Positions 42,469 to 47,769 of a DNA stretch of 64,000 nt are shown piece by piece (position 1 is the first letter of the stretch; each line of letters begins with the position of its first letter). The position numbers and the translations under genes were made by a program. The notes below the pieces were generated by a model that did not search any database, had not been told where the DNA came from, and saw only the letters and a program-made list of their open reading frames with translations. Source of the stretch: Saprospiraceae bacterium (lineage in GTDB: Bacteria; Bacteroidota; Bacteroidia; Chitinophagales; Saprospiraceae); assembly GCA_013001595.1 (NCBI GenBank), contig JABDMH010000094.1, forward strand, positions 62,001-126,000, in the 5' to 3' direction.

Positions 42469-43603
42469 TTGCAAAGGCATGAAAAACTACAATGCAATAA
42501 CGAATGGACCTCCATTCAAAACAGATATGCAAGTTTTACTAAGACACTTAGAGCGCATCCTATGGATCCCGAGGCAACTGCAGCTGGCCCATCTGTTTAT
42601 CCAGGAAGCTCGCATAACGGGAGCGCACAGTCATTACTATCAGGCGGCCATAAGGATACTCGATGACCTACTAAACATCAATAGCGACAAGCTAAGCGCT
42701 GATCAACAGTTTATGACGTTGAGCACGAAGGCTGGAGTACATCTGTCTCTACATCACTTTCAGAAAAACTTAACCCTGGGGCAAGAAGCAATGCAGCTTA
42801 ATAAATATAATGCTCAGATCTACGGTTTACTGGTGGATGCCAACGTCGAACTTGGTCGATATAAACGAGCTGTAGAGCTAGCTGATCAGATGGTCGCCAT
42901 TCGTCCTGATTTGCGATCCTATGCTAGAATCTCTTATCTCAGGGAGATACATGGAGATGTCCGTGGAGCCATTCAAGCCCTGGAAATGGCAGTGGCTGCT
43001 GGATTTCCAATTTATGAAGAAACGGCATGGGCAAGATTAACCTTAGGAGAACTATATGAGAGATATGGCATAGAGAAAGAAGCCTTGATGACCTATGAGT
43101 CAATCTTACAGGACCGACCAAACTATCCCTTGCCCTCGCTGCGTTGGCACATCTTGCCAAGACTAAGGGAAGGTATGCAGAGGCTCAAACACAGCTCGAT
43201 CAAGCGTGCAGCATTATTCCGGAAGTGGGATTCTACATTACCAAAACTGAGATCTGCTTGGAAGCCGGTGGTGAGGAACAAGCCCAGGGCATTACAGATG
43301 AGGTGCTCAACATGTTGGCAGATGATATTAACAACGGACACAATATGGATTTGGAGTACGCTCATGTTTATTGGAAGCTTAGGGAGGACCCCAAGTCAGC
43401 CCTAAAATATTTAGAGCGCTCCTACACTAGTCGACCTGACAACATTGACATTAATCGGGCCATGGCTCGTCTTTATCTGCAAACTGAACGAACCTGAAAA
43501 AGCAAGAAAGCATTTCGAGGTGGCTAGTAGGACTAAATCTGCAGATCCTGAGCTTGTTGGTGTTGCTGAAGAATTGAAGCAAATTAATCACGAGCGCATC
43601 TAG
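42469..43603 (+). pseudogene. Frameshifted TPR-repeat protein gene
   Basis: The coherent TPR protein is spread over frames that require three single-base changes. Upstream frame: TLRAHPMDPEA, then an extra A near 42572 moves to LQLAHLFIQEARITG. A lost T near 43130 moves from DRPNYP to ALAALAHLAKTKGRYAEA. An extra A near 43482 moves from RLYLQ to LNEPEKARKHFEVA, ending at TAG 43603. The longest single frame (42479-43405, 308 residues) has an unrelated tail after residue 217. No signal peptide or clear start remains. TPR proteins act as protein-protein scaffolds; this copy is probably dead, or the assembly carries indels here. Confidence 0.75.
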
Positions 43604-44039: not shown

Positions 44040-45368
44040 TTATAACACTTTGTCGAGGTGCCCACTGAGTTGTTCTCCTTTGGGCAGCTCTTCGACCTTA
44101 CTTAATCTCCTTTCCACAGCCCGACGCCTAACTCCCGCCTGATCAATGACGTTATTCGCTTCGGATAGCTTTTTCTGTACTTTATCAAGAGCAGTTCCAA
44201 ACTTTCCGAACTCAGACTTTATTTCTGAAAGCAAGGACCAGACCTCACTTGATCTTTTTTCTATCGCCAAGGTGCGAAAACCCATTTGCAAGGAGCTCAG
44301 GAATGCACTGAGGTTATTGGGCCCCGCTACAATGACTTGGTGTTCCGACTTCAGTCGATACAATAAGTCAGGTTGGCGACTTACCTCCGCATATAGTCCC
44401 TCAACGGGTAAAAACATGATGGCAAAATCAGTGGTGTGGGGAGGTGCTATATACTTGGTCTGGATATCTTTGGCTGATGCCAACATCGCACGCTGCAAAT
44501 CTTTGCTGCAGCTCTTTATCTTTTCAGGACAACCATCTTCATAAGCGTCTGACAACTGCTGATAGCGATCCATGGGAAATTTTGCATCAATCGGTAGGTA
44601 CAATGAATCTGCCTGAGTCTGCTTACCTGGCAATTTGATGGCGACCTCAACTCTCGTGTCCCTTCCAGGAACAGGGCTCGCGTTCAACTCATATTGCTCG
44701 ACCGTCATCACCTGTTCAATGATCTTGATCAACTGCATTTCCCCCATCACCCCCCTTGTCTTCACATTTGCGAGCACCTTTTTAAGATCTCCGACACCTG
44801 CAGCCAAATGCTGCATTTCACCCAGCCCCTTTTGCACTTTCTCAAGGTGATCACTCACCATCTTAAATGAATGCCCCAATCGATCTTCCAGTGTCTGATG
44901 CAATTTTTCATCTACCGTCTCCCTCATCTTCTCCAGTTGTTGAGCATTATCCGACTGCATAGATTGTAGGCGCTTATCGACATTGGCCCAAATTTTCTCT
45001 AGTGATTCGGACAATTTATGTTCCAGGAGTACTGATCGCTCCTCTTGGTTCTTAAGGGTAAATTCCACCCGGCTATTGATAGAGTCAAAGACTCGCAACT
45101 GTCGTTCCCCGAATCTGACAAGTGCTGTGTCTATCTCTTCACGACTTTCTTTTGCCACCCGACTCTGCTCAACTCGATTATGCACACTTTCCTGTCTAAT
45201 CAATGTACTTAGCCCCGATTCCTGACGTGAAAAATGATCAGCTAGACTTTTCAATTCTCGTTGCAGGGCATGGCGATTCCTGCCCAAAAGTTGAACTACG
45301 AAATGTAAGGATGACACGACTAGTATGAGTAGCAAGAAGATAAGACCAAGATCAAAATTCATTAGCAT
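44040..45368 (-). CDS. rmuC: DNA recombination protein RmuC homologue
   Basis: 442 residues. An N-terminal membrane anchor (LGLIFLLLILVVSSLHFVV) is followed by a long coiled coil (about 35-195, rich in E/K/Q heptads). The RmuC nuclease-like core has KTRGVMGEMQLIKIIEQV, LPIDAKFPMDRYQ and DFAIMFLPVEGLYAEV. RmuC limits inversions and rearrangements at repeats in E. coli; its biochemical activity is not well defined. A 30-residue membrane ORF with a Fur-like palindrome lies directly upstream on the same strand. Confidence 0.92.
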   Translation of the reverse strand: MLMNFDLGLIFLLLILVVSSLHFVVQLLGRNRHALQRELKSLADHFSRQESGLSTLIRQESVHNRVEQSRVAKESREEIDTALVRFGERQLRVFDSINSRVEFTLKNQEERSVLLEHKLSESLEKIWANVDKRLQSMQSDNAQQLEKMRETVDEKLHQTLEDRLGHSFKMVSDHLEKVQKGLGEMQHLAAGVGDLKKVLANVKTRGVMGEMQLIKIIEQVMTVEQYELNASPVPGRDTRVEVAIKLPGKQTQADSLYLPIDAKFPMDRYQQLSDAYEDGCPEKIKSCSKDLQRAMLASAKDIQTKYIAPPHTTDFAIMFLPVEGLYAEVSRQPDLLYRLKSEHQVIVAGPNNLSAFLSSLQMGFRTLAIEKRSSEVWSLLSEIKSEFGKFGTALDKVQKKLSEANNVIDQAGVRRRAVERRLSKVEELPKGEQLSGHLDKVL

Positions 45369-45403
45369 AATTTTAAGTTAGAAACAAAAGGTGGACAACG
45401 GAC

Positions 45404-45496
45404 CTATTCTGGCCACTGCTTCAGAAAGCTTCCCGCTATGTTCAAGAAGGTCAGTATGCCAAGTGCTACGATCGCAATTAGTAAAAAATGTACCAT
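45404..45496 (-). CDS. Tiny membrane peptide upstream of rmuC
   Basis: 30 residues, ATG 45496 to TAG 45404: begins MVHFLLIAIVALGILTFLNI and ends with LKQWPE. It is one hydrophobic helix with a charged C-terminal end, and looks like other single-pass small proteins. It lies 35 bases before rmuC, so they may share a transcript. No family was recognised. Its small size makes chance occurrence possible, but the helix plus position argues for a real product. Confidence 0.42.
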   Translation of the reverse strand: MVHFLLIAIVALGILTFLNIAGSFLKQWPE

Positions 45497-45565
45497 ATCA
45501 GTTCTAGTTTATGAGTCAATTGATGATACAAGTTTATAGTAGCTTCATGCAATCATTTTGCACGG

Positions 45566-45580
45566 TGATAATTATTATCA
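45566..45580. promoter_or_regulatory. Fur-box-like 7-1-7 palindrome
   Basis: TGATAATTATTATCA is a perfect 7-1-7 inverted repeat identical to the Fur/Fur-family half-site arrangement TGATAAT-N-ATTATCA. It is intergenic, 70 bases before the start of the 30-residue ORF and upstream of rmuC on the minus strand. A TAAACTTG sequence near 45527-45534 on the minus strand is one mismatch from the -7 consensus, placing the palindrome just behind a -33 region. Confidence 0.5.
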
Positions 45581-45690
45581 TATTTTTATTTCGAAATATG
45601 TGGAGATCCATCAGCTGCACAACTGATGTAGGCTCGATGTGACAAGTGTTGGATCGACCACGAAAAGGGTGGCTCCATCAAGCCAATTGG

Positions 45691-46365
45691 TCAATCCAAT
45701 AGATCTGGTCTTTGGCGCTGCGTGTGTTTAAAAGCTTGTTCATCTCTCCAGGATGCTATCGCTGCATCGTCACCGGACAACAATACATCAGGAACAGTCC
45801 AACCTTTGAATGTTGCAGGACGGGTATAAATTGGTGGGGCTAGCATATCATCCTGATAACTGTCAAAAAGTGCCGAAGATTCATCATTTAGTACACCCGG
45901 TATCAATCGACCCACCGCATCAACAAGAACAGCTGCAGCAAGCTCTCCACCGGATAATACGTAATCACCGATGCTGATCTCTAACGTGACCAAATGATCC
46001 CGAATACGTTGATCTATTCCCTTGTAGTGGCCACAAATGATCAGTAAGTTTTCAGCTAGAGACAATCCATTGGCGCGTGATTGATCTAATTGTTGACCAT
46101 CTGGTGTCATGTATATGATGTGGTCATAGGTGCGCTTTTTCTTTAAGTCCGTGATGGCATTGTAGAGAGGTTCTACCATCATCACCATCCCGGCTCCACC
46201 TCCATACTGATAATCATCAATTTGGTGGTGCTTGCCAATTCCATACTTTCTCAAATCAATGACATTCACATTGAGTAGGTTGCGATCCGAAGCCCGTTTC
46301 AGGATCGAATGTTGGAACGGACTTTCAAGCAAGCTTGGTACCGCACATAGTATGTCGATGTACAT
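45691..46365 (-). CDS. trmD: tRNA (guanine-N1)-methyltransferase
   Basis: A GTG at 46374 opens the frame three codons earlier, but ATG 46365 (MYIDILCAVPSLLESPF) aligns with the family N-terminus; 224 residues. The knot region carries CGHYKGIDQRI and YVLSGGELAAAVLVDA, typical of TrmD. It methylates G37 next to the anticodon to prevent frameshifting. It is the last gene of the prolyl oligopeptidase-cdaA-dipeptidase-trmD transcript, starting just after the dipeptidase stop. rpsP, rimM and rplS, its usual partners elsewhere, are absent. Confidence 0.94.
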   Translation of the reverse strand: MYIDILCAVPSLLESPFQHSILKRASDRNLLNVNVIDLRKYGIGKHHQIDDYQYGGGAGMVMMVEPLYNAITDLKKKRTYDHIIYMTPDGQQLDQSRANGLSLAENLLIICGHYKGIDQRIRDHLVTLEISIGDYVLSGGELAAAVLVDAVGRLIPGVLNDESSALFDSYQDDMLAPPIYTRPATFKGWTVPDVLLSGDDAAIASWRDEQAFKHTQRQRPDLLD

Positions 46366-46374
46366 AGCGGCCAC

Positions 46375-47769
46375 TTAATCGTTTTCACCAGCATAATAGT
46401 GATAGAAATAGGGAATCGTGCGAATGCCTTGGTAAAAATTATATAGACCAAAATGCTCATTGGGTGAATGAATATCATCTGAATCTAAGCCAAATCCCAT
46501 AAGGACTGACTTCACACCTAAGACATCTTCAAACAGCGAAACTATCGGTATGCTTCCTCCTCCCCGTGCTGGAATCGGGTCTTTACCAAATGTTTTGTTC
46601 ATGGCTTTGGCAGCAGCTGCGTACTCCGCACTATCGGTCGGTGTCACAGCGGGCTTACCACCATGGTGAGGAGTCACCTTTACCTGGACACTTGAGGGTG
46701 CTATTTTCTTGAAATGCTTGCTGAACAATTCCGTAATCTCATCTGGATCTTGGTTTGGTACCAGGCGCATGCTGATCTTGGCAAATGCCTTCGATGGCAA
46801 AACCGTCTTTGCACCTTCGCCTGTATATCCCCCCCAGATCCCATTGACGTCCAAAGTTGGTCTGATCGCCGTCCGTTCCAAAGTAGTGTACCCTTCCTCA
46901 CCCATCAAATCTGCTACGTTCAGTTCGTTCATATAGGACGCTTCATCATAGGGAGCTTTGTTCATTTCAGCACGCTCTTCAGACGACAGCTCTAAGACTT
47001 TATCATAAAAACCCGGTATGGTGATGCGCTTCTTTTCATCGTGCAGGGAAGCAATCATTTGCGCAAGAACGTTGACTGGATTTGCTACAGCCCCACCAAA
47101 CACGCCAGAATGCAAGTCCTTGTTGGGCCCAGTCACCTCCACCTCTACATAACTCAATCCTCGCAGCCCAGTAGTTATGCTAGGGGTATTATTATCTAAT
47201 ATTGCCGTATCGCTAATCAACACCGTGTCACATGCCAACTCATCCTTGTGTGTTCGACAAAATATTTCCAGATTATCCGAACCGACTTCCTCTTCACCTT
47301 CAAATAAAAATTTCACATTGCACCTTAGTTCACCTGCTTGCATCAAACTTTCAAATGCCTTCACATGCATAAAGAGCTGACCTTTGTCATCACAAGACCC
47401 GCGAGCGAATATGGCACCATCTGGATGAATTTTCGTCTTTTTGATCAACGGCTCAAATGGAGGAGAATCCCAAAGTTCCAGTGGATCAGGAGGTTGCACA
47501 TCATAATGACCGTATACCACGACTGTTGGGTAATCTTTAGCCAGCACATGACTACCCATCACAATGGGATGACCAGCTGTCTCGTGAACGTTAACCTGGG
47601 TAACCCCAGCTTGCAAGAGGTATTGTTTAGTGGCCTCTGCAGCCCTTTGTACATCTTCTTTGTGGGCGGGATCTGCGCTGACAGACGGAATGCGCAAGAA
47701 CTCTATAAGTTCCGTGAGAAAACGATCCCTATTTTTTTCAATATAGGCTTCAACAGCTTCCATGCTCAT
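46375..47769 (-). CDS. M20-family dipeptidase
   Basis: 464 residues. Metal and catalytic motifs of the M20 fold: VVVYGHYDVQPPDPLELW (His and catalytic Asp), GSCDDKGQ (bridging Asp), FEGEEEVGS (catalytic base and ligand), plus the dimerisation lid starting near TGLRGLSYVEVEVTG. It belongs with the CNDP/DapE-like cytosolic peptidases and probably hydrolyses di- or short peptides. No signal peptide is present. The gene begins five bases after cdaA. Confidence 0.92.
   Translation of the reverse strand: MSMEAVEAYIEKNRDRFLTELIEFLRIPSVSADPAHKEDVQRAAEATKQYLLQAGVTQVNVHETAGHPIVMGSHVLAKDYPTVVVYGHYDVQPPDPLELWDSPPFEPLIKKTKIHPDGAIFARGSCDDKGQLFMHVKAFESLMQAGELRCNVKFLFEGEEEVGSDNLEIFCRTHKDELACDTVLISDTAILDNNTPSITTGLRGLSYVEVEVTGPNKDLHSGVFGGAVANPVNVLAQMIASLHDEKKRITIPGFYDKVLELSSEERAEMNKAPYDEASYMNELNVADLMGEEGYTTLERTAIRPTLDVNGIWGGYTGEGAKTVLPSKAFAKISMRLVPNQDPDEITELFSKHFKKIAPSSVQVKVTPHHGGKPAVTPTDSAEYAAAAKAMNKTFGKDPIPARGGGSIPIVSLFEDVLGVKSVLMGFGLDSDDIHSPNEHFGLYNFYQGIRTIPYFYHYYAGEND

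Follow-up and report, generated by a model that had tools for sequence, protein, structure and literature searches.

A conserved 30-residue membrane micropeptide gene ahead of rmuC and a presumed WYL operator in its promoter in Saprospiraceae

Locus and features

A perfect Fur-type palindrome stands above a 30-residue membrane ORF (ORF30) and rmuC in a 64,000-nucleotide stretch of a Saprospiraceae genome (the window), which raises the question of whether a metal regulator or some other factor controls these two genes. On the minus strand the order is trmD, ORF30 and rmuC, and the features are as follows.

45691-46374, minus strand: trmD (PF01746), upstream of ORF30
45670-45685, minus strand: weak terminator-like hairpin right after trmD (consensus scan, 6 pairs)
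45566-45580, plus strand: Fur-like 7-1-7 palindrome, probably coincidental (not conserved)
45547-45563, minus strand: inverted repeat GTGCAA-AATGA-TTGCAT, presumed WYL operator (kept in five relatives)
45529-45536, minus strand: TAAACTTG, -7 box-like element, exactly 10 bp past the repeat
45404-45496, minus strand: ORF30, gene for a 30-aa single-helix membrane micropeptide (homologues, dN/dS, hydrophobicity)
44040-45368, minus strand: rmuC, presumably the second operon gene (PF02646, 4.9e-70), 35 bp past ORF30

The rmuC product belongs to the RmuC family, scoring 236.4 bits against PF02646 with a cut-off of 26. The hairpin (one found vs 0.3 in shuffles) gives no evidence of function, and an Rfam scan of 45000-46400 returned no match. 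Sigma-70-type promoter matches were dropped, as three were found vs 1.5 in shuffles, and the Bacteroidota -7 box was used instead. Convergent with rmuC lies a TPR protein gene (42479-43603, plus strand) in three overlapping frames, reflecting two frame changes or assembly errors; it is a single frame near rmuC in relatives G003 and G004.

ORF30 and its conservation

The preliminary description saw a hydrophobic 30-residue ORF of no known family followed by rmuC, and proposed that the two are linked; both points are confirmed here. ORF30 encodes MVHFLLIAIVALGILTFLNIAGSFLKQWPE and lies directly upstream of rmuC in four genomes of the same genus (G001-G004, 59-80% identity), and it again precedes rmuC in G116, which belongs to another genus. 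Of 298 family genomes searched with a profile, five gave a match (the window's own, G001, G003, G004 and G116), while the copy in G002, missing from this list, was found through comparison of the rmuC loci. A search with rmuC found a close homologue in G001-G004 and no match in G005, a same-genus genome that is 89% complete. No Pfam or NCBIfam family was matched above cut-off, the lone NCBIfam match being far below it. ORF30 was not found in viral contigs, and among 395 class genomes only the own copy was recovered, two weak partial matches (13-15 positions) not being accepted.

For the five copies from the same genus, dN values of 0.15-0.30 stand beside dS values that range from 1.1 to saturated. 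All six copies carry a hydrophobic 19-residue stretch (mean KD 2.4-2.9) forming one helix each, eight positions are invariant across them, and the helix and an N-I core are retained in the other genus. From these substitution rates and retained residues, ORF30 is a genuine conserved gene under purifying selection.

The association does not extend to every rmuC gene. A second close copy in G003 has neither ORF30 nor the repeat described below, and the same was observed for related genes in G042, G048 and G029. The rmuC alignment in named genomes gave at least 548 relatives, of which 80 were kept (five loci yielded no ORF by the marker used); among these 80, only L178, on a contig matching G002, has both ORF30 and the repeat, and L224 has a one-mismatch repeat without ORF30.

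The Fur-like palindrome

The gap between trmD and ORF30 holds TGATAATTATTATCA at 45566-45580, a perfect palindrome of the 7-1-7 form TGATAATnATTATCA of Fur-regulated promoters. The preliminary description had reported it as perfect, intergenic and the only such 15-mer in the window, which is correct even when one mismatch is allowed (0.03 matches expected; 3 of 100 shuffles had one). TGATAATNATTATCA has a single perfect match in the 6.2-Mb genome, and a perfect box within the 80 bp of the promoter was reached by 0 of 1000 shuffles, so that it is not expected from base composition. Across 60 genomes (about 280 Mb), 11 carry one perfect site each, vs three sites in the reversed control; since about one genome in five has a perfect site, rarity within a genome is weak evidence.

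Promoters of the relatives were aligned on the conserved repeat, and the 80 bp upstream of it were compared. The box was absent from this promoter in five of five relatives, whose best matches had 4-6 mismatches, the level of shuffles. The conservation check suggested in the preliminary description therefore came out divided, the ORF being kept upstream of rmuC in five other genomes and the palindrome occurring in the own promoter only, and the proposed Fur-type control gained no support. Eight of the 10 perfect sites outside the own genome lie inside ORFs of at least 60 aa; one of the other two precedes a phosphoglycerate kinase-like gene (by eye) and one lies in another gap, and no iron-related gene was recognised by eye beside any of the ten. 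The 15-mer is identical to the Fur box, but it is unconserved, single in the genome and outside any recognised iron-gene context elsewhere. On these comparisons the palindrome is probably coincidental, and Fur control as the main reading was rejected because the palindrome is missing from all five related promoters.

A conserved inverted repeat and -7 box

Two bases downstream of the palindrome lies an inverted repeat, GTGCAA-N5-TTGCAY (45547-45563), which is conserved as GTGCAA-N5-TTGCAC in five relatives, while the window's own copy has a TTGCAT arm (one arm mismatch). In six of six ORF30-rmuC promoters the repeat is followed by N10 and then TAnACTTG, and the expectation for the whole operator-spacer-box pattern in the window is 0.00. 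For Flavobacterium psychrophilum a sigma-A box TAnnTTTG is described at -12 to -5 (PMC9723704), which would put the repeat here at about -39 to -23, with its centre near -31.

The six same-genus genomes contain 11 exact repeats, vs none in the reversed control; at up to one mismatch there are 58 sites vs 19, most of the imperfect ones without a -7 box. A second gene, of 119 aa, has the same promoter layout in all six, with four exact repeats, one mismatch in G003 and G005, and imperfect -7 boxes throughout; its protein has no family match above cut-off. The copy in the window's own genome lies at 3779-4191 of L051 (G000:C121). In this genome the element occurs outside ORFs, at up to one mismatch, in two promoters only, plus one match inside an ORF, and the idea that DNA-repair genes generally carry it was not borne out.

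Across 60 genomes, operator-N10-TAnnTTTG at up to one mismatch was found at 44 places vs 9 in the reversed control, 10 of the 44, including four identical ones, being supplied by G054. These four (C20, C29, C35, C37) have an ATGCAA-N5-TTGCGT-N10-like promoter, perhaps within a repeated element. Other matches precede, for example, genes for an RNA ligase and for a UvrD helicase, and several matches lie inside ORFs. In G055, of another family, a one-mismatch element stands just before a distant rmuC. The same promoter element precedes a T4-Rnl1-like RNA ligase gene in L176 (G008:C12), a stretch in which no WYL gene was seen. A 54.7-kb contig, G004:C380 (L054, L055, L140), has four repeat sites at up to one mismatch, one of them preceding a gene run that includes a vWA-like protein (by eye), and the four stretches read from it showed no WYL gene.

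A WYL regulator family and its operator classes

A WYL homologue lies next to ORF30-rmuC in divergent orientation in G001-G004. The window's genome encodes its orthologue on contig C39 (344 aa; PF13280, WYL, 1.3e-14; PF25583, WCX, 2.7e-11), whose N-terminal DNA-binding domain has no Pfam match at 0.1 and near whose gene there is no repeat. In this genome ORF30-rmuC with its promoter now sits below trmD and the WYL gene is in trans; in G116 the WYL gene is about 21 kb from ORF30 and has a repeat of its own. The divergent arrangement of regulator and target is seen in G001-G004 and absent from the window's genome and G116.

At E <= 1e-60 the WYL profile has matches in 100 of 199 family genomes, at 123 places, of which 90 were read (30 as loci, 60 fetched), mainly weaker, partial or stop-bearing ones being left out; together with the G001-G004 loci these gave 99 non-redundant upstream regions. 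RYGCAA-N5-TTGCRY is present in 62 of the 99 at up to one mismatch and in 41 at none, compared with 0.76 and 0.06 expected from mononucleotide shuffles. The remaining 37 WYL genes, that of the window's genome among them, have no repeat.

Operators differ at position 2, and so does the seventh residue of a VSKRTVQLD-type motif, which we read as the putative recognition helix. Position 2 is C:G in 42 of the 62 operators, and residue 7 is Q in all 42; it is T:A in 18, with M or K in all 18. Two operators are mixed, so agreement is complete for the 60 unmixed ones. In a tree of 45 WYL proteins built without the DNA-binding part, one branch (99/96) separates the C and T classes, and the agreement therefore records one switch on the tree rather than many; the window's protein, whose own upstream region has no repeat, was labelled T by its helix and the ORF30 operator.

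On the side of the divergent gene, operator-to-box distances (-7 box at 5 of 6 or better) peak at 10 with 33 matches, and spacings 9-11 together give 45 matches for the 62 operators, shuffles giving about 0.8 per spacing. On the WYL-gene side the largest counts are 11 each, at spacings 16 and 17. Of the 42 C-class operators, 28 face a divergent rtcB, and of the 18 T-class operators six face a divergent rmuC: four of the same genus, plus G130 and G205, both outside it, where RmuC was confirmed by Pfam. Among the 37 WYL genes without an operator, rtcB is divergent in two and rmuC in none.

In L085, L158, L162, L171 and L177 an rtcB RNA-ligase gene and a C-class WYL gene diverge from a region with an RCGCAA-N5-TTGCGY-N10 promoter, and the pair likely forms a widespread WYL-controlled RNA repair unit. 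The same WYL family has other divergent neighbours as well, namely genes for DUF2130, reverse transcriptase, Fic and N6-methylase, and one WYL gene lies near a cas1-like gene (by eye), the loci being L337, L341, L343, L090 and L347; defence roles are possible for these.

Comparison with known damage regulators

DriD of Caulobacter is a WYL activator that responds to damage independently of SOS. It is described as binding a pseudopalindrome that overlies a poor -35 and keeps a constant distance to the -10, and as activating the operon that diverges from the driD gene (PMC12340889, preprint). Its regulon as described includes didA, bapE, recJ, dnaG and the divergent CCNA_03891/01149 operon, didA being a division inhibitor (PMC4211646). 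The system here resembles it in the WYL regulator with both WYL and WCX domains (C39 orthologue), in the palindromic site at a fixed distance from the -10/-7 over the -35/-33 (N10 in 6/6 promoters), and in a divergent operon (in G001-G004) and a small membrane protein among the targets, activation here being presumed. It differs in the operator, which is ATACGAC-N7-GTCGTAT for DriD and GTGCAA-N5-TTGCAY here, in the target rmuC, and in the lack of one PafBC-type arginine.

Against solved structures, the WYL profile matched 8tp8, which is DriD (PMC11804915), at 5.6e-6 over profile positions 200-330 only, and PafBC, the mycobacterial WYL activator, at 1.8e-6 over the whole sequence with no single stretch under 1e-4. 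The WYL domains are thus related to PafBC by profile. Unlike the proteins here, PafBC is described as a heterodimer with an arginine pair for ssDNA binding (R211/R214, R201/R204), of which, by our own placement of the positions, the first is alanine and the second is kept in nine of nine aligned proteins, none having the full pair.

SidA is a 29-aa SOS-induced division inhibitor of Caulobacter (PMC4211646). ORF30 encodes a small membrane protein of similar size with a single hydrophobic helix, a likeness of size and helix. As for rmuC, it figures among the known SOS genes of V. cholerae and is induced in E. coli data (PMC5963079, PMC11002266); the gene here is likewise under presumed damage control, and differs in having a presumed WYL operator in place of the LexA control described elsewhere. 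No LexA DNA-binding domain was found in the own and five same-genus genomes (85-99% complete), and of 60 genomes searched seven have a match, five of them above cut-off.

Proposed mechanism and alternatives

From comparative sequence, in which several genus genomes are fragmented, we infer binding, activation, signal, co-transcription and peptide role, and consider that ORF30-rmuC is probably a WYL-activated operon. ORF30 and rmuC would share their own promoter, at which the C39 orthologue would bind GTGCAA-N5-TTGCAY (about -39 to -23), covering the position of the -33, and recruit RNA polymerase as DriD does in Caulobacter. The trigger is likely some product of nucleic-acid damage that the WYL domain binds; activation on damage is proposed from the DriD layout, the SOS status of rmuC elsewhere and the failure to find a LexA domain in the genus. 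A plain copy of DriD or PafBC is disfavoured by the alanine at the first arginine position and by rtcB beside the sister C class, which suggests RNA signals. Induction would yield RmuC and the micropeptide, which may act as a SidA-like division check, inhibitors of the SidA/DidA type acting through FtsW/FtsI/FtsN, or as a partner of membrane-anchored RmuC.

The gene, the repeat, the spacing, the WYL association and the operator-helix correlation, all seen directly, favour this reading. Against it weigh that the operator-helix agreement amounts to one switch, the arm mismatch of the window's operator, the alanine for one PafBC arginine, the two own-genome promoters with the element, and the restricted DriD structure match. 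The rmuC homologues without ORF30 and repeat, including the G003 copy, and the 37 of 99 WYL genes without a repeat also count against it, and indicate that the link is not universal.

The strongest competitor is a WYL repressor of the BrxR and CapW kind, which would cover the -33 region until damage or phage products release it. The operator does overlap that region, defence systems are known to be under WYL repressors (PMC11804915), and other WYL genes of the family stand beside the DUF2130, reverse transcriptase, Fic and N6-methylase genes; however, a repressor does not need an exact distance to the -7 box, so the 33 matches at spacing 10 fit an activator better, and the activators DriD and PafBC rank ahead of CapW and BrxR among the nearest solved relatives by profile. 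We regard repression as rather unlikely. The remaining alternatives appear weaker. A role of ORF30 as leader peptide or as regulatory uORF upstream of rmuC, its product having no function in the membrane, would agree with its shortness, its place immediately before rmuC in six of six loci and its match to no known family, but its amino acids are retained while synonymous sites are near saturation, the helix and N-I core persist in another genus and the distance to rmuC varies among loci, which leaves this reading improbable. Metal control through Fur (or Zur, PerR or Mur) binding of the palindrome is the least credible. The genome encodes two Fur-family proteins, so a species-specific Fur site is conceivable, and the palindrome is perfect, unique in the genome and unmatched in shuffles of the 80 bp; it is nevertheless missing from the five related promoters, and perfect sites elsewhere (the only ones considered) mostly fall inside ORFs, without iron-related neighbours recognised by eye.

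Implications

In searches of open-licence PMC papers no title listed dealt with WYL control of rtcB or rmuC, and none of the papers named WYL, Bacteroid and rmuC together. Beyond the operon itself, we advance as a tentative idea, one that could well prove wrong, that in LexA-less Bacteroidota a WYL family with an operator code (Q or M/K for C or T) runs nucleic-acid damage responses, with rtcB RNA repair in one branch and rmuC with a new 30-aa division inhibitor checkpoint in the other. If so, the family would be a candidate for the role of LexA in a lineage in which no LexA domain was found, and its operator could be scanned for in other Bacteroidota genomes. The spacing of that operator would show the DriD mode of activation at work in another phylum, and a selected 30-aa membrane protein family would join the few damage-linked micropeptides.
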